A program made the translations under genes and the position numbers. Below the pieces are notes generated by a model. It was not told where the DNA came from. It did not search any database and was given only the letters and a program-made list of their open reading frames with translations. From assembly GCA_945862135.1 (NCBI GenBank), contig CAMAYE010000002.1:1-58761 (forward strand): a stretch of DNA of 58,761 nucleotides, written 5' to 3'. The number at the start of each line of letters is the position of its first letter. Position 1 is the first letter of the stretch. Below are positions 1-10,235 of this stretch, piece after piece. This DNA is from Bordetella parapertussis (GTDB lineage: Bacteria > Pseudomonadota > Gammaproteobacteria > Burkholderiales > SG8-41).

Positions 1-530
1 CGCGGCAGGCTGAGCGCTTCGCGCAACTGCGCCATCAGGGGCGGTGCCGCGGGCACGCCGACCTTGGCCGGCGACAGATCAGTCGCGGGCGGCTCGCTGC
101 CGTCGTACACAAAACCCAACGCCCAATCGAGCGGGATCACCAGCCAGCGCATCCGCTCGCCGTAGCGGGCGGTTACGTCCCGCGCTTCGCCGATCACACT
201 CGTCAGGCCGTTGCCGCTTTGCGCAAAATTGTAGGTGCTGACACCCGTGGGAAAAGCGTCTGCAGTGATCGACATCGCGGTTGATGAGCCGAACACTACC
301 GCATTGATTTGCGGTGAACGGTCGGCCAGACGCAGCGCCTTGAATGCGCGGTTGCTGCTGATCGGTGGCGCGTAGGTCACCCCGCCGGTTTCCTGCTGCC
401 ATTGGCTGGCCAGTCGGTTCTTGTCATGACGGTAATCGTTGGCAAGCAGCATCAGGTTCAGCGCCAGCACCGGCGCCAGCACCGCGAGGCATCCGCCGAT
501 CACCCAGGCCGTGTATGCGCGCGGCGTCAT
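1..530 (-). CDS. SGNH/AlgJ-like membrane-anchored partner of MBOAT acyltransferase (partial, C-terminus off window)
   Basis: The ATG at 530 shares one base with the stop of the upstream MBOAT gene (TGATG), so the two are probably translationally coupled. The frame stays open to the left edge, giving about 176 residues. Residues about 8-30 form one hydrophobic anchor (rich in V, L, A), and the rest looks periplasmic. A GSS motif at residues 81-83, after a hydrophobic beta strand, resembles the nucleophile block of SGNH-type AlgJ/AlgX/DltD-like proteins. Proteins of that group often follow an MBOAT gene and finish O-acylation of an envelope glycan on the outer face of the membrane. The Asp/His half of any catalytic triad would lie outside the window, so the family call is moderate. 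Confidence 0.68.
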   Translation of the reverse strand, partial: MTPRAYTAWVIGGCLAVLAPVLALNLMLLANDYRHDKNRLASQWQQETGGVTYAPPISSNRAFKALRLADRSPQINAVVFGSSTAMSITADAFPTGVSTYNFAQSGNGLTSVIGEARDVTARYGERMRWLVIPLDWALGFVYDGSEPPATDLSPAKVGVPAAPPLMAQLREALSLP

Positions 531-2083
531 CAGAACTGAAAGTACAAGAACTCGGAATGCCGACCGAGATTGACGATCACTGCAAGCGCCAGCACCACGG
601 TCAATGCGGCAGTGACCGGCGCGACGCGCCAACAAATCCGCGATGCGGCTTCCGCGGGAACACCCAGCGCAGGTTTTGCCGCAGCCATGATCTGCTGCGT
701 GTTCGGTGCCAGCCAGACCACTAGCAACAATACCCAGATCCAGTTCAGCACACCAGTCCGCGCCAGCGCCGGCGTAGCGCCGAATTCAACGCCCTGCGCA
801 GACAACGTCGCACCGACTCCGGCAAATTTCGCAGCCCATGCTTCCGGCAACACCAGACCATTAAAACCGGCCATCGCACGCAGGATGCTCAGCGCCGTAT
901 CCACATCGGGCGCACGGAACAGCACCCAGCCGACAACCACAGCAATAAAGGTCAACAAACATCCCGCTCGCCTTCCCCATGGCGTCGACTGATGCAGGTT
1001 GTGACCGAGCCGGCGGCGAAATTCACGCCAGCCATGGTTGATCACCAGATAGACGCCGTGCAGCACACCCCACAGCACGAAGGTCCACCCCGCGCCGTGC
1101 CACAGGCCACCCAGCAGCATGGTCAGCAACAGGTTGGTGTAGCGACGCACCCGGCTTTTGCGGTTGCCGCCGAGCGGCACATACAGATAATCACGCAGGA
1201 AACGCGACAGCGTCATGTGCCAGCGCCGCCAGAAATCGATGACGTTGACGGCCTTGTACGGCGAATGAAAATTGACCGGCAGGCGTACGCCGAACAGCAG
1301 CGACAGGCCGACTGCCATGTCGGAATACCCTGAAAAATCAAAATACAGCTGAAAGGTATAGGCCAGCGCGCCGCACCACGCCTCCAGCATGGTCAGCGTG
1401 ACCCCCGCACCCGGCGCATCGAACACCGGCGCCACATAGGGTGCGACACCGTCGGCGATCAGCACTTTTTTGGCGAGTCCCAGCACAAACAATGTCAGCC
1501 CGGCAGCGATCAGGTCGTACTGCGGGCGGTAGATTTCGCGCCTTGCGAACTGCGGCATCATTTCGCCGTGATGCAGGATGGGCCCGGCAATCAGGTGCGG
1601 AAAATAAGTGACAAACAATCCGTAGTGCACGAGGTTGTATTCACGCACCTTGCCCTGCCAGGCATCCACAAGAAAGGCGATCTGGGTAAAGGTGAAGAAT
1701 GAAATGCCCAGCGGCAGGATCACCTGCGCGAAATGCCAATCCGTACCGGCAATCGCATTGAGATTGCCGATGAAAAAATTGGCGTATTTGTAATAAGCCA
1801 GCAGCACCAGATTGGCAACAATGGCCAGTTGCAGCAAGCGCCGGCTACGCAACACGGCACCTGCCGCATGGGCACGTGCAATCGCTCTGCCAGCGGTGAA
1901 ATTGAACAGGATAGATGCCAGCAGCAGAACAACATAGGCCGGATTCCACCAGCCGTAGAAAAACAGCGAAGTTGCCGCCAGCCACCCTGCCGCCAGTTTC
2001 ACGCTGAAACGGCCCAGCGCGAAAAACACCAACGCAGTCAGCGGCAGGAACAGGAAAATGAAGGCGTGGGAATTGAACAGCAC
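530..2083 (-). CDS. MBOAT family membrane-bound O-acyltransferase (AlgI-like)
   Basis: This is a 517-residue polytopic protein, close to the usual 470-520 for AlgI/DltB/PatA-like enzymes. The hallmark DFWRRWH block is at about 283-289, followed by LSRFLRDYLYVPLGGNR to about 308. The second signature, GGLWHG, holds the invariant histidine at H329. These enzymes move acyl (usually acetyl) groups across the cytoplasmic membrane to a glycan or to a partner acyltransferase. The next gene is such a partner. The gene starts 18 nt after the RffA-like aminotransferase stop and runs in the same direction as the sugar genes. The acceptor cannot be read from the sequence; the context suggests a glycan carrying the amino-deoxy sugar made by the neighbours. 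Confidence 0.9.
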   Translation of the reverse strand: MLFNSHAFIFLFLPLTALVFFALGRFSVKLAAGWLAATSLFFYGWWNPAYVVLLLASILFNFTAGRAIARAHAAGAVLRSRRLLQLAIVANLVLLAYYKYANFFIGNLNAIAGTDWHFAQVILPLGISFFTFTQIAFLVDAWQGKVREYNLVHYGLFVTYFPHLIAGPILHHGEMMPQFARREIYRPQYDLIAAGLTLFVLGLAKKVLIADGVAPYVAPVFDAPGAGVTLTMLEAWCGALAYTFQLYFDFSGYSDMAVGLSLLFGVRLPVNFHSPYKAVNVIDFWRRWHMTLSRFLRDYLYVPLGGNRKSRVRRYTNLLLTMLLGGLWHGAGWTFVLWGVLHGVYLVINHGWREFRRRLGHNLHQSTPWGRRAGCLLTFIAVVVGWVLFRAPDVDTALSILRAMAGFNGLVLPEAWAAKFAGVGATLSAQGVEFGATPALARTGVLNWIWVLLLVVWLAPNTQQIMAAAKPALGVPAEAASRICWRVAPVTAALTVVLALAVIVNLGRHSEFLYFQF

Positions 2084-2101
2084 GGCAGCGCCGGGGCCGC
2101 G

Positions 2102-3238
2102 TTAACGCTTGAAAAAACTGCGCACGTGGCCGGCGATGTCGCGCGCAGCGGCATCATCGAGATTGAAGAACAGCGGCAGCCTTACCAGCCGCTCGGCCAG
2201 ATCCTCGGTCACCGGCAGTGCACCCGCGGTCCGGCCGAATTTGCGTCCGGCGGGGGAAGAATGCAGCGGTACGTAATGGAACACTGCATGCACACCGGCC
2301 GCTTTCAGATGCGCCAGCAGCGCGCCGCGTTCCGCAGCAGTGCGCGTAAACAGATAAAACATGTGGCCGTTGCCGGCAACCCCTTCGGGCTCCGGCTGCG
2401 GCAATTGCAGCAGGCCGGCATCGGCGACATCCTGCAATGCATTCTGATAAAGCGCGCACAACTGGCGGCGGCGGTTGCTGATTTCTGCAGCATGCTGCAA
2501 TTGCGCCCACAGGAAGGCGCCGATCAGCTCGCTGGGCAGGAAGGAAGAACCAATATCAACCCAGGTGTACTTGTCGACTTCGCCGCGGAAGAACTTCGAG
2601 CGGTTGGTGCCTTTTTCGCGGATGATCTCGGCACGCTCGATCAGATCCGGGTTGTTGATCAGCAGCGCACCGCCTTCGCCGCTGATGACGTTTTTGGTTT
2701 CATGGAAGGACAGGCAGCCGAGATCACCGATCGCACCAGGACGCCGGCCCTTGTATTCAGCCAGCACCGCCTGCGCGGCATCTTCGACCACCAACAGATT
2801 GTGACGGCGTGCGATGGCCATGATCGCATCCATCTCGCAGGCCACGCCGGCGTAATGAACGGGCACGATGGCGCGTGTCTTCGGCGTAATCGCCGCTTCG
2901 ATCAGCTTTTCGTCGAGGTTCAACGTGTCCGGACGGGTATCGACAAACACCGGCACGCCGCCGCGTAGCACAAAGGCATTGGCGGTGGAGACAAAGGTGT
3001 ACGACGGCATAATCACTTCGTCGCCGGGCTGGATGTCGCAAAGAATTGCTGCCATTTCCAGCGCCGCGGTACAGGAATGCGTCAGCAGCGCGCGTTTGGC
3101 GCCCAGTTGTTCTTCCAGCCAGCGGTGGCACAGCTTGGTGTAATGCCCGTCACCGGAGAGATGGCCGCGCGCCACGGCGTCGGCGATGTATTCCAGCTCC
3201 GGGCCGATGATGAAGGGTTTGTTGAACGGTGTGCTCAT
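2102..3238 (-). CDS. rffA: dTDP-4-amino-4,6-dideoxygalactose transaminase (RffA/WecE type)
   Basis: A 378-residue fold-type I PLP aminotransferase of the DegT/DnrJ/EryC1/StrS family. The family's cofactor Asp is in VEDAAQ (D153) and the Schiff-base lysine is in SFHETKN (K182), followed by SGEGGALL. The HETKN block and overall length match RffA/WecE, which transfers an amino group from glutamate to dTDP-4-keto-6-deoxyglucose to make dTDP-Fuc4N. The nearby acetyltransferase looks like WecD/RffC, which uses exactly this product, and that supports the call. The gene starts 10 nt after the methyltransferase stop. The rest of the enterobacterial common antigen set (wecA, wzx, wzy) is not in the window. 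Confidence 0.87.
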   Translation of the reverse strand: MSTPFNKPFIIGPELEYIADAVARGHLSGDGHYTKLCHRWLEEQLGAKRALLTHSCTAALEMAAILCDIQPGDEVIMPSYTFVSTANAFVLRGGVPVFVDTRPDTLNLDEKLIEAAITPKTRAIVPVHYAGVACEMDAIMAIARRHNLLVVEDAAQAVLAEYKGRRPGAIGDLGCLSFHETKNVISGEGGALLINNPDLIERAEIIREKGTNRSKFFRGEVDKYTWVDIGSSFLPSELIGAFLWAQLQHAAEISNRRRQLCALYQNALQDVADAGLLQLPQPEPEGVAGNGHMFYLFTRTAAERGALLAHLKAAGVHAVFHYVPLHSSPAGRKFGRTAGALPVTEDLAERLVRLPLFFNLDDAAARDIAGHVRSFFKR

Positions 3239-3248
3239 ATCGAAAAAG

Positions 3249-4121
3249 TCAGGCCTTGCGCCTCGCCACCGCCAGCAGTGACCCGCCGAACGGCAGCGGC
3301 AAGCCGGTACGGATCACTGCACGCTCAACATCCAGCGCCAGTTCGAGCAGCGTGTTGGTCAAGCGCCCGATGCGCAACTCCGCCAGCGGATCGTAATCCG
3401 GCGATTCGGTGCGTCGGGTCAGGCGGGACAGCATCATCAGCGGCAACAGTACGGAAACAAAGGAGGTCATTTTAACGGTCTCGAAGCCCGCCCGCGCGAG
3501 CTTCTGGCGCAATTCGCCGCCGGTATATCGCCGGACATGGTGGGCGCGCACGTCGTATTCGCTCCACAGGAAGGGATGTTGCGGCACTGTCAGCAGCAGA
3601 TGGCTGCCCGGGCGCAGTGCGCGATGCATTTGCGCCAGCACGGTTTCGTCTTCGCCGATGTGTTCGATCACATCAAATGCACCGATGACGTCGAACTCGC
3701 GATCAAAGGGCATGTGTCTAGCGTCCATTTGCAGGAAAGTCGCGCGAGGCACGCGGCTTGCAGCGAACTGCAGACCTTCGGTCTGCGCTTCGGTACCGCA
3801 AATACCGGCGCCGGGAAACGCGGTCGCCACACCCTGCAGCACATAACCGGTGCCGCAGCCGACCTCGAGAAAATTGGTGAATGACGGCGCATATCGCTGC
3901 AGCGCCCAGACAATCAGCCGGTTGCGCGCGCGAAACCAGAAGTTGTTTTCCTCGAGTGCCGCCAGCTCGGCGAACATTGCGGGATCAAATCCTTCTGACT
4001 GCGCAGCCAGTTCAGGGGCCAGCGCAAGAAATCCGGCACGCAGCTGCGGCTGATGGCCACAGGCCGGACAATTCCAGCCTTCAGCAGCCAGCGGCGCAGC
4101 GCAGGCCGGACACAACCTCAA
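3249..4121 (-). CDS. Class I SAM-dependent methyltransferase with N-terminal zinc ribbon
   Basis: I place the start at TTG 4121, whose bases overlap the TGA stop of the upstream SMR gene (TTGA). An upstream ATG at 4178 would run through the SMR gene and add a low-complexity, Arg-rich tail. From the TTG the protein has 290 residues. Two CPAC motifs (C4, C7, C18, C21) form a zinc ribbon. Then come motif I VGCGTGYV, an acidic block DARHMPF, and the post-I strand with FDVIEHI, as in UbiG/methyltransf_11 enzymes. Its place inside a sugar-nucleotide and glycolipid cluster suggests methylation of a sugar or lipid-linked sugar, but this is inferred from position only. Confidence 0.78.
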   Translation of the reverse strand: MRLCPACAAPLAAEGWNCPACGHQPQLRAGFLALAPELAAQSEGFDPAMFAELAALEENNFWFRARNRLIVWALQRYAPSFTNFLEVGCGTGYVLQGVATAFPGAGICGTEAQTEGLQFAASRVPRATFLQMDARHMPFDREFDVIGAFDVIEHIGEDETVLAQMHRALRPGSHLLLTVPQHPFLWSEYDVRAHHVRRYTGGELRQKLARAGFETVKMTSFVSVLLPLMMLSRLTRRTESPDYDPLAELRIGRLTNTLLELALDVERAVIRTGLPLPFGGSLLAVARRKA

Positions 4122-4480
4122 CCCTGGCTCCCGACGATGATACCGACGGTGATCAGCGCGAGCCCGGCGATCTTCCAAGCATTCACCGGCTCATGGAACA
4201 CCAGTGCGCTCAACACCAGCACCAATACGAAAGCGAGGCTCATGAAGGGGTAGGCATGCGACAGATCGAGCTTGGTCATCGCCGCCATCCACGACACCAC
4301 GGCGAGAAGGCCGGCCGCGAGCGCGGAGATCACCCAGGGATTGACCAGCAGTTTGGCAAGAAACCACAACCGATCCGGCGTTTCCAACGGAAACGCGCCG
4401 GCCGCAACAACCTGCCATTTGATCACGATCTGGCTATAAACCGTCAGAAAAATTGTAACAAAAACAAATAGATAGCTCAT
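4118..4480 (-). CDS. SMR/EamA-type four-TM small membrane protein, candidate lipid-linked sugar flippase subunit (ArnE-like)
   Basis: A 120-residue protein with four predicted transmembrane helices, the size and layout of the EmrE/ArnE/ArnF group. The ATG at 4480 overlaps the upstream acetyltransferase stop by 4 nt (ATGA), and its stop overlaps the next start. In the Arn pathway, paired SMR-like proteins flip undecaprenyl-phosphate-aminoarabinose made by the GT2 enzyme ArnC. Here a single SMR gene sits two genes after an ArnC/DPM1-like GT2, so a role in flipping the loaded lipid carrier is a reasonable inference. A drug-efflux SMR is the alternative, but tight coupling to sugar genes argues against it. 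Confidence 0.75.
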   Translation of the reverse strand: MSYLFVFVTIFLTVYSQIVIKWQVVAAGAFPLETPDRLWFLAKLLVNPWVISALAAGLLAVVSWMAAMTKLDLSHAYPFMSLAFVLVLVLSALVFHEPVNAWKIAGLALITVGIIVGSQG

Positions 4481-5145
4481 GTCGTCATCCGATGGTAAAT
4501 ATCGACGGGATGGCGCAGCCGGAAGCCCAGTGTCAGGTAGAGATTTGCGGCTGCAATGTTGGCGGCAGAAATTGAGCTGCTGACTTCAGCGTGGCCCTGT
4601 GAAAATAGTTCATCACACACGACTGTCCACAGAAATTTGGCAATGCCGCGCCCGCGGAATTTTTCAGCCATCGCATGCAGTACAAACCGGCTGCCGTCGA
4701 TGGCCATGAAACCAGCAAGCTCGCCGTCGAATAAAAGTCCGCGAGCACCGCCTGCGGCATGCACCTGTCGCAGCCAGTTGTCGTAACGCTGGTCCGCCTG
4801 CGCTTTCGGCAAATTGAAATCGCGATGAAAACGGCCATGCTCGAAGGCGCCGTGGCAGATTGTCAGCAGTTCAGCGAGGTTTGCATCACGGGAAAGCGTT
4901 GCCCGGGGATCGCGATGGCCGATAAATCGTTCTGCATGGCAGTGCGGTTCGAGCAGCGTGTCGCAGTAATAAAAACCGTGTTCGTGCAGCAGGACTTTCG
5001 ACGTCAGCGGATTAACCTTGATTGAATAATGGCCCGGGTACTTTGTTGCGGCACGCAGGGCATTCTCATCCAGCGCAGTGATTTCGTAGCAATCGCGCCC
5101 GAACGCAGCGCTGTCCCACTCAACGCGCCGGATCGCGGGATGCAT
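4477..5145 (-). CDS. GNAT acetyltransferase, WecD/RffC-like (dTDP-Fuc4N N-acetyltransferase)
   Basis: A 222-residue GNAT protein, close to the 224-residue length of WecD. The segment FHRDFN (106-111) is typical of WecD-type sugar N-acetyltransferases. The acetyl-CoA loop RGRGIAKFL is at 164-172, and the C-terminal helix block AANLYLTLGF is at about 199-208. WecD acetylates dTDP-4-amino-4,6-dideoxygalactose to dTDP-Fuc4NAc, the product expected from the RffA-like enzyme three genes on. The reading frame overlaps the upstream GT2 gene by 26 nt and the SMR gene by 4 nt, consistent with one transcript. The sugar stereochemistry (Fuc4N or Qui4N) cannot be decided from sequence. Confidence 0.82.
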   Translation of the reverse strand: MHPAIRRVEWDSAAFGRDCYEITALDENALRAATKYPGHYSIKVNPLTSKVLLHEHGFYYCDTLLEPHCHAERFIGHRDPRATLSRDANLAELLTICHGAFEHGRFHRDFNLPKAQADQRYDNWLRQVHAAGGARGLLFDGELAGFMAIDGSRFVLHAMAEKFRGRGIAKFLWTVVCDELFSQGHAEVSSSISAANIAAANLYLTLGFRLRHPVDIYHRMTT

Positions 5146-6067
5146 GGTCGAACGTTGTTTTCATCACGATGTACAGCGGACGCTTCTTCGCCTCATCAAA
5201 AGTCTTGCCCAGATAAATCCCAAGTACGCCGAGTATGCTGATGATGATGCCGCCAATGAAATAGACCGATACAAACAGGCTCGGCCAGCCGACCACCGTT
5301 GATCCGTAGAGCGCTGCTCGCACCAGGATGAACAAGCCCGCCGCAAAAGCCAGCAAGGACATCATGAATCCGAATCGTACCGCCAGCCGCAAGGGTTTAT
5401 CGGAATAGGCAATGATGGTGTCCGTAGCCAAGCGCCACAGCTTGGAAAAAGTATAGGTCGATTGCCCTTCGTGCCGCAGCGCGTGGCTCACCTCAATTGC
5501 CGCGGTCGGGAATCCCATCCAGTTCACCAACCCGCCAAAAAAGCGCAGCTGTTCGCGCATCTGTCGGCTGGCCATCACCACCTTGCGCGAGATGATGCGG
5601 AAGTTGCCGGTCGCACTGTCGTATTCGGTATCCGCCAGCCAGCTGAGCAGCTGATAGAAACACCACGACGAAAACCGCTTCAGCGCACCGTCGGTACGGC
5701 CGCCGCGGCGGGCGAGTACCACGTCATAACCTTCCTGTGCCTTCGCATACAGCGCGGGAATTTCTTCGGGGCGATCCTGCAGATCACAGTCCATCACCAC
5801 CACCCAATCGCCTTCAGCAACATCCAGCCCTGCGGTAATGCCGTAATGCTGGCCGAAATTGCGGCTGAACTGCAGGCCTTTCACACGAGGGTCCGCCGCA
5901 GCAAGGCTGCAGATGATGTCCCAGGATCGATCACCGCCGCAGTCCTCGACCATGATGATCTCGAAATCCGCAGTCACCGGCTCGATGGCTGCGACCAGCC
6001 GCCGATACAGTTCATCCAGGCAGCCTTCGGCCTTGTATACGGGAGTGATCACAGACAGATGCGGCAC
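5120..6067 (-). CDS. Family 2 glycosyltransferase, DPM1/ArnC/GtrB-like polyprenyl-phosphate sugar transferase
   Basis: A 315-residue GT-A enzyme. The N-terminal strand SVITPVY, the acidic DCDLQD motif (93-98) for nucleotide-sugar and metal binding, and SATGNFRI match DPM1-like polyprenyl-phosphate glycosyltransferases. Two C-terminal helices (about 229-250 and 262-287) anchor it in the cytoplasmic membrane, as in ArnC and GtrB. The expected reaction moves a sugar from its nucleotide donor onto undecaprenyl phosphate. With RffA and WecD homologues downstream, the donor is probably dTDP-Fuc4NAc or a methylated form of it. The start lies 3 nt from the msbA stop, so the cluster may be one long operon beginning at msbA. 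Confidence 0.88.
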   Translation of the reverse strand: MPHLSVITPVYKAEGCLDELYRRLVAAIEPVTADFEIIMVEDCGGDRSWDIICSLAAADPRVKGLQFSRNFGQHYGITAGLDVAEGDWVVVMDCDLQDRPEEIPALYAKAQEGYDVVLARRGGRTDGALKRFSSWCFYQLLSWLADTEYDSATGNFRIISRKVVMASRQMREQLRFFGGLVNWMGFPTAAIEVSHALRHEGQSTYTFSKLWRLATDTIIAYSDKPLRLAVRFGFMMSLLAFAAGLFILVRAALYGSTVVGWPSLFVSVYFIGGIIISILGVLGIYLGKTFDEAKKRPLYIVMKTTFDHASRDPAR

Positions 6068-6070
6068 GAC

Positions 6071-7813
6071 TCAACCCTCCCCGCTTGAAAGGAACTGATT
6101 GCGATACAGCTGTGCGTACTTGCCGCTGCGCGCCAGCAATTCAGCATGCGCGCCGCTTTCGGCGATACGCCCGCCATCAAGCACGACGATGCGATGCGCG
6201 TTTTCGATGGTCGACAGGCGGTGCGCAATGACGATGGTGGTGCGGCCGCGCATCAGCACTTCCAGCGCGGCCTGCACATGGCGTTCGGATTCGGTATCAA
6301 GCGCAGAGGTGGCTTCGTCGAGAATCAGCACCGGTGCGTTTTTCAGCAAGGCGCGCGCAATCGCCAGACGCTGGCGCTGACCGCCCGACAACTTGACGCC
6401 GTTCTCGCCGACCATGGTATCGAGCCCTTGGGGCATCTGCTGGATGAATTCCATCGCATGCGCTGCCTCAGCTGCCGCAACAATGTCGGCGCGCGACGAC
6501 TGGTTCATCGCGCCGTAGGCAATGTTAGCCGCCACGGTATCGTTGAACAGCACCACGTCCTGACTGACCAGCGCGATATTGGCGCGCAGCGCAGAAAGCT
6601 TCAGTCCGGCAATATCCTGACCGTCAAGCAGGATGCGTCCGCCCGTTGGCTGATAGAAGCGCGGCACCAGATTGGCCAGCGTGGTCTTGCCGCTGCCCGA
6701 GGCGCCGACCAGCGCCAGCGTTTCACCCGGCGCAATCGCCAGATCGATGCCGTCCAGCGCTTGGCGGCCATCGGCGCCGTAGGCGAAACGGACTTGCTCG
6801 AAACGGATTTCGCCGCGTACGCGACCCGGATCAGCGCTGCCGGTATCGGTTTCGCTGTGCTGGTCGACCAGTGCGAAAACGCTCTCCGCGGCAGCAAGCC
6901 CGCGCTGCAGCGGTTCATTGATGCTGGTGACCCGCTTCAGCGGCGCCGTCAGCATCAGCATCGCGGTAATGAAAGACACAAATCCACCGACGGTGATCTG
7001 GTCGGTGTTCGACTGCTGGGTGGCCAGATAAACAATCGTCGCCAGCGCCAGGGCCGCAATGAATTGCACGATCGGCACACTGGCGGCAGACGCAGCGACC
7101 TGCTTCATCAACTGGCGGCGCACATTGTTCGCCTGTGCATCAAAGCGTTTCTGCTCGTAATCCTGTCCACCGAACAGCTTTACCACGCGATGGCCTTCGA
7201 TGGTTTCCTGGATCACCTGTGTCATGTCACCCATTTGCTGCTGCACCTGGCGGCTGGAATTGCGCAGGCGCACGCTGATCACCCGCACGACCAGCACAAT
7301 GACGGGGGTCATCACCAGCGACAGCATCGTCAGTTTCCAGTTGAGCCAGAACATCCAGCCGAGCAGGCCGATGATCACCAGGGCATCCTTGAATACCGCA
7401 GTCAGCACGCTGGTCGCTGCAGTAGTCACCTGCATGACATCAAAAGTCAGCCGCGAAATGAGATTGCCCGAAGCCTGATCGTCGTAATAACGCGCGGGCA
7501 ATGTCAGCAGCTTGCGGAACATGATGCCGCGCAGGTCCATCACCAGCCGGTTGCCGACCCAGGACAGCGCGAACTGCGCCACATATTCGGCAAGACCGCG
7601 CAGCACAAACAGGCCGACGATGAACACCGGGGTCCAGCGGATTACCGACGGGTCCTTGTTGACGAATACGCCGTCGAGCAGCGGTTTCAGCAGTGCCGGC
7701 AGTGCCGGTTCGGTGGCCGCAACCACGATGATGCCGAGCACGCCGATACCGAACGTGCGCCAGTACGGCCGTACATGGCGCAGCAGTCGTAAGTAGAGCT
7801 CGGTTCCGGACAT
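6071..7813 (-). CDS. msbA: Lipid A / lipooligosaccharide flippase ABC transporter MsbA
   Basis: From the ATG at 7813 this is 580 residues, against 582 for E. coli MsbA. I reject an upstream ATG at 7903, because those 30 extra codons run through the terminator of the next gene. An N-terminal six-helix membrane domain is followed by one ATPase domain with Walker A GASGSGKTT (370-378), signature LSGGQRQ (475-481), Walker B LILDEA (about 496-501) and the H-loop histidine H531. MsbA flips lipid A-core across the inner membrane as a homodimer. It heads a run of sugar-modification genes, suggesting the decorated product may be lipid A, core or another lipid-linked glycan. Confidence 0.9.
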   Translation of the reverse strand: MSGTELYLRLLRHVRPYWRTFGIGVLGIIVVAATEPALPALLKPLLDGVFVNKDPSVIRWTPVFIVGLFVLRGLAEYVAQFALSWVGNRLVMDLRGIMFRKLLTLPARYYDDQASGNLISRLTFDVMQVTTAATSVLTAVFKDALVIIGLLGWMFWLNWKLTMLSLVMTPVIVLVVRVISVRLRNSSRQVQQQMGDMTQVIQETIEGHRVVKLFGGQDYEQKRFDAQANNVRRQLMKQVAASAASVPIVQFIAALALATIVYLATQQSNTDQITVGGFVSFITAMLMLTAPLKRVTSINEPLQRGLAAAESVFALVDQHSETDTGSADPGRVRGEIRFEQVRFAYGADGRQALDGIDLAIAPGETLALVGASGSGKTTLANLVPRFYQPTGGRILLDGQDIAGLKLSALRANIALVSQDVVLFNDTVAANIAYGAMNQSSRADIVAAAEAAHAMEFIQQMPQGLDTMVGENGVKLSGGQRQRLAIARALLKNAPVLILDEATSALDTESERHVQAALEVLMRGRTTIVIAHRLSTIENAHRIVVLDGGRIAESGAHAELLARSGKYAQLYRNQFLSSGEG

Positions 7814-7916: not shown

Positions 7917-9893
7917 TCAGCGGAAGGTATAACGCGCTGTCACATACAACACGCGTTCCGGCGCCGGCAGCGCCGAGTAGGTCGGGAAACCGGTGAACAC
8001 ACCGTATGAAAAATAGTGTTCATTAAACAGGTTCTGGATGCCGGCCGTGACGCGCCAGTCGGCCTGGTCATACGCCAGCTTCAGATCGACAACGGTATAC
8101 GCCGGCATTTTCTGGTTGAAGGTGTTCAGCTCGTCGCCGTCGTAACGCTGCTCGCCGGTATAACGCAACACGGCATCAACCCGTGCCCGCGACATGAATT
8201 TCCAGCCCGCCCCCAGGCTGGCGGCATGACGCGGCACCAGCGGTACATCGTTTCCGGCTATGGGCGTACCGCCAAAGCTGCCGGAACGAAACTCCGCTTC
8301 GGCGTAGGTATAGCCCGCTGACAGATCAACGCCGGGCATCGGTTGCCAACGCGCTTCCGCTTCAACGCCACGACGGCGCGTCGGCGGCAGGTTACGATTG
8401 GTGAAAGTCACCGGATCGAGCAGGATTTCGTTTTCCAGCTCGATTTCATACAAAGCCAGCCGGTAACGTGCCTTTGCACTGACGGACTCCAGACCGATTT
8501 CGCGGTCACGCGCAGTCTGCGGTTCGAGCAGATTCACCGTTGCGGTGAACAGGCTGTAGTTGTCGTTGACGTTGGGCATGCGGAAACTGCTGCCGATCTT
8601 GCCGTATGCCGCCCAGTTGCCGCCCAGCGGCTGACGCAACGCAATATCGTATGCATCCAGATTACGTTTGCGTTCGGCGCGGACAGCAGCATTGGCCGGA
8701 TCCGCGACGCCGTAGGTCACGCGCTGGCCGCGCGCGCCAATGGCAAACGAAGTGCCGCCGGCAAACAGCGTCGTGTGCTGGGCATATAACGCATCGCTGC
8801 GCTGAGTCGCCTGCGGGCGGCCGACGATGGACGGCCCGGCCGTACCCTGGAAATCCCAGTCTTCGACATCAATGCCCGCCACCAGCGTGTGGCTCATGCC
8901 ACCGAACTCATACGGCAGCCTGGCGCGCGGCGTGAACAGCCACTGCGTTGATTCCGTCTGCACGTTGTTACGGAATGGCGTGGAGACAAAAAACGACGAG
9001 TCGGTGTCTTTCTTTCGATAAGAAATATTGGCGGCGACTTCCCCCTCGCCCATCTTCATGCTGCCGCCAAGATTCAGGTATCCGCCACTCAGCAAGCCGA
9101 AATCGCCGGGCAGCGCGGCTTGTTTGCGATTCACTGCAATCTGCGCTTCGCTGATCGATCCCGGCAATTCGGTGCGCTGGTCATCAGCGCCGGCTTTGAG
9201 CGTCAGCGCGCCATGGTCACCGGTGTAGCGCCAGTCGAGCTGCGCGCTGTCGATGCGCAGCGCATTGTTGTCGCGGTAACCGTCGCTTTCACGGTGCGCC
9301 ATAGTCAGGCGCAGGCCGGTGCGTTCGCCGGCGATGTTGGCGCCAATGCGTACGTCACGCGTGCGATAACTGCCCACACCGCCTTCAACAAATCCGCTGC
9401 GGGTGTTTGCTACCGGCGTCTTGGTGATGATGTTGATGGTGCCGCCAGTCGCGCCCGCGCCGTAGAGCACTGAACCGCTGCCGCGCATGACTTCGATGCG
9501 TTCGATGGCGTCCAGCGGAATCGCTGACCAGTTCACCGTGAGCTGTTCGTTTTCGCTGATGCGCTGGCCGTCGAGCAGCACCAGCGTGTTCTGGTCGCCG
9601 AAAATGCCGAAACCGCGCAGATCCACCTGCAGGTTGGGGGAGCCCGAAAGGTCACGGGTCTGCACACCGGGCAGCATGCGCAGCAATTCGGGGACGGTAC
9701 TCGCGGTGCTGTTGCGGATATCTTCTTCGGTAATCACGGTGACACCGACCGGAAACTGGCGCGGGATATCCGGGAAACGTGTCGCAGTCACCACGACCGG
9801 TGGCAGCGCGGCAGCCAGGATCACGGGTTCCGCGGAAAAACCGGGGGGAGCTGCCGCGGACAAGGCCGCGGCGACGATGGGAAAACTCTTCAT
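7917..9893 (-). CDS. btuB: TonB-dependent outer-membrane receptor, BtuB-like (cobalamin)
   Basis: I place the start at ATG 9893, which begins a signal peptide. The in-frame extension to 10184 would translate the riboswitch, so it is rejected. The product is 658 residues (E. coli BtuB 614). After the signal comes a TonB-box-like PPVVVTATR, a plug domain with the TVPELLRMLPGV and LRGFG blocks, VLLDGQRIS, and IERIEVMRGSGSVLYG, all typical of TonB receptors. The C-terminal strand ends in aromatic residues (YVTARYTFR). A cobalamin riboswitch directly upstream is the main evidence for vitamin B12 or another corrinoid as ligand. No other B12 transport or synthesis gene is nearby. Confidence 0.88.
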   Translation of the reverse strand: MKSFPIVAAALSAAAPPGFSAEPVILAAALPPVVVTATRFPDIPRQFPVGVTVITEEDIRNSTASTVPELLRMLPGVQTRDLSGSPNLQVDLRGFGIFGDQNTLVLLDGQRISENEQLTVNWSAIPLDAIERIEVMRGSGSVLYGAGATGGTINIITKTPVANTRSGFVEGGVGSYRTRDVRIGANIAGERTGLRLTMAHRESDGYRDNNALRIDSAQLDWRYTGDHGALTLKAGADDQRTELPGSISEAQIAVNRKQAALPGDFGLLSGGYLNLGGSMKMGEGEVAANISYRKKDTDSSFFVSTPFRNNVQTESTQWLFTPRARLPYEFGGMSHTLVAGIDVEDWDFQGTAGPSIVGRPQATQRSDALYAQHTTLFAGGTSFAIGARGQRVTYGVADPANAAVRAERKRNLDAYDIALRQPLGGNWAAYGKIGSSFRMPNVNDNYSLFTATVNLLEPQTARDREIGLESVSAKARYRLALYEIELENEILLDPVTFTNRNLPPTRRRGVEAEARWQPMPGVDLSAGYTYAEAEFRSGSFGGTPIAGNDVPLVPRHAASLGAGWKFMSRARVDAVLRYTGEQRYDGDELNTFNQKMPAYTVVDLKLAYDQADWRVTAGIQNLFNEHYFSYGVFTGFPTYSALPAPERVLYVTARYTFR

Positions 9894-10023
9894 GCAATTT
9901 CCTTGATTGCGCGTGCCCGCCGCACGCAGGTTGCAACACAAAGGAAAATCGACAGAGTTACCCAAAGGAATGAAATGCACGCAATGTGCATGATCCGGTA
10001 GGCCGCCCTGCGCGACTGTTCCT

Positions 10024-10235
10024 GACTGGCGAACCAGGCCGGTCTCCGGGCTTGCAACCTCTGGCACATCGCCTTCCCATCCCCTTAGAGACAGTGGCTT
10101 CTGACGCGCCATGGCATTCGCTGGTCTGAACGCCGGTTGCTTACCGTTGCGGGGGCAGCACAGGAATTGGTCTTGCGACCGCACCTGTTTCCCGTTTCAC
10201 CGACGTCCCTTGCGGGGAGCGTCGGCACCTGAAAC
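10024..10235 (-). promoter_or_regulatory. Cobalamin (B12) riboswitch
   Basis: Reading the minus strand, the leader has the conserved features in order: GGTGCC near 10229, GGTGAAACGGGAA, then CTGCCCCCGCAACGGTAAGC, then GCCACTG followed by a GGGATGGGAAGG block near 10075-10095, then the B12 box AGCCCGGAGACCGGCC near 10030-10055. This is the standard AdoCbl-type aptamer order. It ends about 130 nt before the receptor ATG, leaving room for an expression platform. Bound cobalamin would be expected to reduce receptor expression. Exact ends are approximate. Confidence 0.95.

Follow-up and report, generated by a model that had tools for sequence, protein, structure and literature searches.

The window analysed here comprises 58,761 nt from an uncultured Burkholderiales bacterium (positions 1-58,761 of contig C2 in assembly G000; position 1 is the first base of the contig). 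At its left end, eight genes headed by msbA are encoded on the - strand and run towards the contig edge. We consider it likely, with a probability of about 0.7, that the genes behind msbA form a donor-sugar cassette of a three-component periplasmic glycosylation system of the Arn/Gtr type, which would provide a sugar resembling 4-acetamido-4,6-dideoxygalactose (Fuc4NAc), and that it belongs to a group of alternative cassettes exchanged as units, each with a matched GT-C glycosyltransferase. Gene content and order, the families of the transaminase (WecE), the acetyltransferase (GNAT) and the GT-C, the replacement of an SMR by a GtrA protein and the joint divergence of the exchanged block are supported by sequence comparisons and models. 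The original prediction, made from the window alone, had proposed the Fuc4NAc-like pathway. The other donor-sugar cassettes at the same locus in relatives, with FdtA/FdtB and GtrA (3-amino sugar) or of a UDP-GlcNAc 2-epimerase type, are new here; they are not visible from the window and go beyond that prediction.

In the proposed mechanism, the WecE-type transaminase would aminate dTDP-4-keto-6-deoxyglucose to dTDP-Fuc4N and the GNAT would acetylate the amino group, yielding dTDP-Fuc4NAc. The zinc-ribbon methyltransferase would methylate the sugar, the GT2 would move it onto undecaprenyl phosphate, and the SMR protein would flip the lipid-linked sugar across the membrane. An ArnT-like GT-C, very likely coded just past the contig end, would then transfer the sugar to lipopolysaccharide (LPS), most likely to lipid A-core, and the MBOAT and SGNH proteins would O-acylate the product in the periplasm. 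We infer all these reactions from the protein families, as well as the stereochemistry of the sugar, the methyl and acyl positions, the acyl group, the acceptor and the dTDP origin.

Predicted functions of the genes next to msbA

The eight genes, annotated by Pfam and NCBIfam profile searches of the window proteins, nearly touch each other, with junctions of +3, -26, -4, -61, +10 and +18 bases from msbA to the MBOAT gene, and their order and common direction were as originally predicted. The motifs named at that time (K182, H329, FHRDFN and the CxxC pairs) were also found as read. Since the gene order recurs in other genomes, the linkage goes beyond chance. Promoter-like matches (4 versus a shuffled mean of 2.9) and terminator-like matches (17 versus 9.6, dispersed within genes) were left unused.

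MsbA, the lipid A ABC exporter (6071..7813), matched TIGR02203 with 792 bits (cut-off 602) and was the sole match above cut-off in its own genome. It is followed by the GT2 (5120..6067; PF00535), a polyprenyl-phosphate sugar transferase of ArnC/PgfS/GtrB-like type. Its nearest NCBIfam models were PgfS (227 bits) and the ArnC type (173 bits), both under cut-off, and hydropathy confirmed two hydrophobic stretches near the C-terminus, at residues 228-256 and 257-290. The GNAT (4477..5145), with FHRDFN at residue 106, is a WecD-like sugar-nucleotide N-acetyltransferase that matched the NCBIfam WecD model weakly. A single-sequence search against solved structures returned nothing at E 0.01; with a profile, WecD was the only PDB chain aligned over nearly the full length, N-terminal domain included, and WecD was also the top match by fold comparison. 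The four-helix SMR/EamA protein (4118..4480), an ArnE/ArnF-like putative flippase, reached 48.6 bits (E 1e-12) with the ArnF model, below the cut-off of 99.

The class I S-adenosylmethionine-dependent methyltransferase (3249..4121; PF13489/PF08241) starts either at TTG 4121, with the 4-base overlap with the SMR stop that had been noticed before, or at TTG 4178, which gives the -61 junction. Its zinc ribbon has CxxC/CxxC at 23/26 and 37/40, and at least two CxxC were present in 38 of 45 methyltransferase sequences of relatives. The transaminase (2102..3238) passed the cut-offs of TIGR02379 (570.6 bits, cut-off 434.85) and PRK11706 (600 bits, cut-off 375), the models for dTDP-4-amino-4,6-dideoxygalactose transaminases of the WecE/RffA type. 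Its best PDB match was 4piw (residues 3-376), with K182 within HETKN. An ArnB-type transaminase was ruled out (201 bits of a cut-off of 631, versus 600 to WecE), as was a PseC type (210 bits). The WecE cut-offs, together with WecD as the best structural and sole full-length profile match of the GNAT, support the earlier reading as a route to dTDP-Fuc4NAc.

The MBOAT O-acyltransferase (530..2083; PF03062) is DltB/AlgI-like and has H329 in WHGAGW; both H289 and H329 were present in 35/35 aligned sequences, in which some genomes are represented twice. The gene of its SGNH-like partner starts with ATG at 530 and is truncated by the contig end (3..530). The protein has one N-terminal hydrophobic stretch and a GSS motif. 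Pfam and NCBIfam searches of it were empty, also with longer homologues from relatives. The Ser of GSS and the Asp and His of DxxH, which we take to be motifs of the SGNH hydrolase type, were present in 31/31 aligned sequences. Among the eight window genes, the Pfam and NCBIfam searches gave no match to ArnA or ArnD, nor to WecB, WecC, WecF, WecG or WzxE.

We scanned a genome contig collection, mostly metagenome assemblies, with the transaminase and kept the best 80 loci. A GT2 at least 60% identical to that of the window was present in 28 of them; the other 52, some of which are short contigs, had no such GT2 in the available stretch. Each of the 28 loci had one predicted flippase gene, either SMR (17) or GtrA family (11), never both and never neither. 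The GtrA genes are of two kinds (seven and four; the GtrA Pfam match of the second kind is documented for L024). This one-for-one replacement fits a role as flippase. The GNAT slot was taken by a GNAT in 20 loci, by a class I methyltransferase in four (L020:2776-3549, L023:7729-8505, L029:7979-8761, L037:5911-6696) and by a hexapeptide acyltransferase in two (L053, L070); no gene was recognised there in L081 and L021, the latter with a GNAT of 26% identity at another place. The exchange of an acetyltransferase for a methyltransferase is consistent with enzymes that decorate the 4-amino group and suggests that the sugar may be N-methylated rather than N-acetylated in the four loci.

In a second set of 61 relatives, a close GT2 (at least 65% identity) was present in 16 of 21 genomes with a close WecE (at least 55% identity), versus 4 of 40 genomes without it (G008, G015 with a fragment, G030 and G036). 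The genes are not dispersed or unlinked in relatives, which had been named as the outcome that would speak against the pathway; the set stays together. The expectation of a flippase gene in every cassette held in 28/28 loci of the first set and failed for G022 outside it. The zinc-ribbon methyltransferase gene also adjoins WecE in L045, L050, L052, L058, L077, L088, L091, L095 and L096, from records labelled Deltaproteobacteria, Chlorobiaceae, Chloroflexi and others, which may reflect an old pair or transfer.

A probable GT-C gene beyond the contig edge

A GT-C transferase had been predicted just beyond the left edge or elsewhere. Positions 1..441 of the window overlap with contig C46 of the same genome (17863-18303), and outward from this overlap C46 carries the rest of an SGNH gene followed by GTC, which encodes a 474-residue membrane protein. 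It is very likely that C2 and C46 are joined in this way, with SGNH running into the GT-C. The gene is found in relatives as well: a member of the GTC family was present in 21 of 35 clustered loci (C46 counted), and it followed SGNH in 13/13 loci of the contig collection with a recognised SGNH. Single-sequence and profile searches of the GT-C against solved structures were both empty; the match came by fold comparison only, with ArnT in complex with undecaprenyl phosphate at the top.

Beyond GTC, the genes on C46 read in the opposite direction: a methyltransferase (MT2) comes first, then a GT9, two GT2s, a ligase of Wzy_C/WaaL type and a dehydratase of CapD type. A WecA-type transferase and an ABC-2 permease are located further out. 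As judged from these genes, the cassette is located between msbA and a core-oligosaccharide/O-antigen ligase cluster. An SDR-family protein on C46 (L004:2286-3224) scored 200-201 bits with the RmlB model (cut-off 365) and has close relatives in G005 and G016. Assemblies G001 and G003 likewise break near MBOAT-SGNH, and these shared breaks suggest strain variation at the SGNH break point.

Alternative cassettes at the same locus

Within the genus of the window, some genomes have the GT-C without a close WecE or GT2, and other cassettes with the same kind of GT-C were found in relatives. In type B, represented by G005 and G013, a different GT2 (GT2'), GtrA, FdtA, a hexapeptide acetyltransferase (FdtC) and a DegT transaminase (FdtB) precede MBOAT-SGNH-GTC; FdtA of G013 matched PF05523 with 155 bits. 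The flanks in both genomes, a TonB receptor and msbA to the left and core genes to the right, are as at the window locus. The same Fdt cassette follows msbA in G028, from another genus of the same family, where core genes were unrecognised in the stretch to its right; in G028 a further open frame, containing hexapeptide-like repeats, lies between msbA and GT2' (L112:3603-4448). Type C consists of a GT2 of another kind (GT2y), a UDP-GlcNAc 2-epimerase and an LPG_synthase_TM protein, reading away from the GT-C. Type D (G030 and partly G036) has GT2, SMR and an epimerase-family gene, with WecE absent.

The GT-C was scanned for in 57 genomes of the family at E 1e-20 or E 1e-60, excluding G046, G047 and G060 from other families. 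It was present in 39 genomes, and the other 18 gave no match at these thresholds. Type A, the window type with close GT2 and close WecE, accounted for 18 of the 39, plus 3 truncated by contig ends (G008, G015, G067). The GT-C is on a separate contig in G000, G001 and G003, MBOAT-SGNH is missing from G022 and G069, and a methyltransferase occupies the GNAT slot in G023 and G061. Type B was found in nine, plus two cut loci (G011, G080) assigned from right-hand genes only; the acetyltransferase gene was unrecognised in G076, G077 and G079, and msbA of G076 lies beyond the contig start. Type C was found in three, plus two cut loci (G024, G032), and G021 and G065 have an additional WecE gene behind the GT-C. 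There was one type D genome (G030), and one (G070) was left unassigned. At the epimerase-type loci L044, L051, L121 and L147, a 65%-identical WecE lies behind the GT-C without close GT2, GNAT or methyltransferase. In type B loci of another genus (L112:7860-11881, L140, L141, L143-L146), either the SGNH gene alone or the whole MBOAT-SGNH pair often occurs twice before the GT-C.

We compared mean protein identities of A-A, A-B and B-B pairs within the genus of the window (up to 12 A and 3 B genomes; 11 and 2 for MsbA). An EVE entry for the genome of the window, which had faulty coordinates, was excluded. The type of the cassette had a strong effect on MBOAT (88.2/70.0/86.2%), SGNH (66.4/44.0/77.6%), GTC (73.4/51.0/76.6%) and MT2 (77.7/49.6/84.3%), and little or none on MsbA (87.7/87.7/88.7%), GT9 (72.2/69.4/76.4%), GT2b (72.2/69.1/79.3%), the waaE-like protein (76.0/73.0%, with a single B genome and hence no B pair) and CapD (75.1/75.0/84.1%). 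WaaL gave 56.0/51.9/78.1%. From this pattern, the differing block reaches from just after msbA through MT2, and GT-C, the acyltransferase pair and MT2 travel with the sugar. This suggests that the cassettes may be exchanged as units, each with its own matched GT-C. In a qualification of the original prediction, msbA heads the gene run but behaves as a constant flank, with A-A and A-B identities both at 87.7%, outside the exchanged block. The GT-C of G028 is 51% identical to genus type B and 44% to type A, compared to 51% between A and B within the genus; this small difference agrees with a possible exchange.

As a broader view, for and against which we see even odds, the locus would be a polymorphic site of LPS decoration, in which 4-acetamido, 4-N-methylated, 3-acetamido and epimerase-type cassettes are swapped between conserved msbA and core genes, each accompanied by a co-adapted ArnT-like GT-C and mostly by the acyltransferase pair. 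It would act as a serotype-like switch of the lipid A-core surface in free-living bacteria of a betaproteobacterial family. If the donor unit of the main reading is indeed interchangeable, the matched pairs of GT-C and cassette within one genus would represent a natural experiment on the sugar-reading part of an ArnT-like enzyme, and surface variation of uncultured environmental bacteria would be explained, possibly as a result of phage pressure.

Competing explanations and known systems

Several observations weigh against a Fuc4NAc-like cassette exchanged as a unit. The 441-base overlap that joins C2 and C46 has 89% identity, so the two contigs may derive from different strains. Type B strains are mutually closer than to type A also at GT2b, WaaL and CapD, where A-A and A-B differ little; shared ancestry may account for part of the type effect, as B genomes are few and pairs are non-independent. 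N-acetylation is not general, because four loci hold a methyltransferase in the GNAT slot. The cassette of G022 has neither an SMR nor a GtrA gene, and another methyltransferase-like gene replaces its MBOAT-SGNH. In G030 and G036, where WecE and GNAT are absent, GT2 and SMR are retained, in G030 together with the methyltransferase. GT2, SMR and GT-C each reach no curated equivalog cut-off. The supply of the dTDP sugar adds to these points. Neither rmlA nor rmlB was over cut-off in the genome of the window, whose assembly of 310 contigs is rated at 88% completeness and 4% contamination; the best rmlB-like match, on C46, had 200-201 bits (cut-off 365). In the 61 relatives, rmlB (TIGR01181) was above cut-off in 16/21 WecE-positive and 29/40 other genomes, and it was dropped as a linked marker since its presence does not track WecE. 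In G046 (rated 100% complete, 1% contaminated), where WecE, GT2, SMR and GT-C are all present, no match to rmlA or rmlB exceeded the cut-off; either the rml cluster of this genome was left unbinned or it uses a different donor.

The most serious of the alternatives, although improbable in our view, is transfer of the sugar to a different acceptor, for example an exopolysaccharide, a pilin or a lipid other than LPS. The acceptor is unreadable from sequence, and several glycans are modified by three-component systems (PMC11127046; for this and the papers cited below, statements refer to their accessible text). However, types A, B and C lie between msbA and core or ligase-type genes wherever the contig reaches, which was not seen for G028, and the nearest solved fold of the GT-C is ArnT.

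It is less probable still that transaminase, GNAT and methyltransferase supply a cytoplasmic O-antigen or exopolysaccharide pathway, with GT2, SMR and GT-C as a separate and merely neighbouring system. WecE and the methyltransferase are adjacent also in loci without a close GT2, and O-antigen genes are present on C46. On the other hand, five of the genes overlap or nearly touch, close GT2 and WecE occur together in 28 of the best 80 loci, and GT2, flippase and amino-sugar genes change together in type B genomes, where the GT-C has diverged.

We regard as unlikelier again a UDP-based donor, for which the WecE-like enzyme would act on a UDP-4-keto-6-deoxyhexose, for example provided by the adjoining CapD-type dehydratase, leading to a UDP-linked diamino or amino sugar. 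The presence of a CapD/WbpM-type gene within the neighbouring core cluster is in favor of this. So are the rml data: rmlA was over cut-off in 9 of 14 chosen WecE carriers and missing from G000, G003, G004, G046 and G029, the last with a partial match of 204 bits, and these are also the five genomes in which rmlB stayed below cut-off. But the transaminase scored 600 bits with the WecE model versus 210 with PseC, the CapD gene adjoins type B cassettes too, rmlB is over cut-off in 16/21 WecE-positive genomes, and three of the five without it are less than 90% complete; G000, G003 and G004 are incomplete genomes. A housekeeping coincidence, with msbA merely beside unrelated sugar genes, was ruled out by the order kept in relatives with msbA as the constant flank.

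The proposed Fuc4NAc-like cassette resembles several known systems in part. The Arn pathway (ArnA, B, C, D, EF, T) adds 4-amino-4-deoxy-L-arabinose (L-Ara4N) to lipid A. The cassette shares with it a GT2 predicted to act on undecaprenyl phosphate, an SMR flippase, a GT-C of ArnT fold and the location next to genes for lipid A export and the core. Unlike Arn, it has a WecE-type transaminase (600 versus 201 bits for ArnB), GNAT and methyltransferase instead of ArnA and ArnD, a single SMR gene rather than two, and an extra MBOAT-SGNH pair. This pair resembles acyltransferase pairs of the AlgI/AlgJ and DltB/DltD kind: its MBOAT protein is joined by a putative SGNH-like partner, which carries a single hydrophobic stretch at its N-terminus and the conserved Ser and DxxH. 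Unlike these, the window pair is tied to a sugar-transfer cassette and co-diverges with its GT-C. With wecE/wecD of the enterobacterial common antigen it shares the transaminase family and the WecD-type acetyltransferase, but the sugar would reach a GT2 of the ArnC kind.

Three-component systems of GT2, flippase and GT-C are established for glucose, galactose and pentofuranoses, and ArnT, which transfers Ara4N to lipid A, is the nearest sequence example to their GT-C (PMC11127046). Compared to those sugars, the gene run here would make its own donor, a modified 4-acetamido-4,6-dideoxyhexose, and the whole donor unit looks interchangeable. Like GtrA/GtrB/Gtr(type) glucosylation (PMC11127046), the system has three components and an exchanged specific part, and a GtrA-family flippase is present in 11/28 loci and in type B cassettes. 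Unlike Gtr, the cassette brings its own amino-sugar synthesis genes, and the whole donor block with the GT-C varies at a core-LPS locus, whereas the Gtr glucose system is prophage-borne (PMC7198725). Operons of gtr genes for side-branch glucose occur alongside separate Fdt/Qdt genes in O-antigen loci (PMC4869667, PMC7198725). The sugar nucleotide dTDP-3-acetamido-3,6-dideoxygalactose is made by FdtA/FdtB/FdtC (enzyme names from PMC7198725), and Fuc3NAc side branches are present in the Xanthomonas O-antigen, LPS3 region (PMC12573098). A comparable 3-acetamido side branch on LPS is proposed for type B cassettes; LPS3 belongs to another species and region, and the accessible text of PMC12573098 makes no mention of a link to msbA, MBOAT or GT-C. 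Our literature search revealed no description of this gene set, of a WecE/WecD-fed three-component system at msbA or of cassette exchange there, which is weak evidence of absence as only open-licence papers were covered, in their accessible text.

Upstream of msbA, the gene for the TonB-dependent receptor (window 7917-10184) varied strongly, with 39-95% identity among type A strains compared to 82-96% for msbA.

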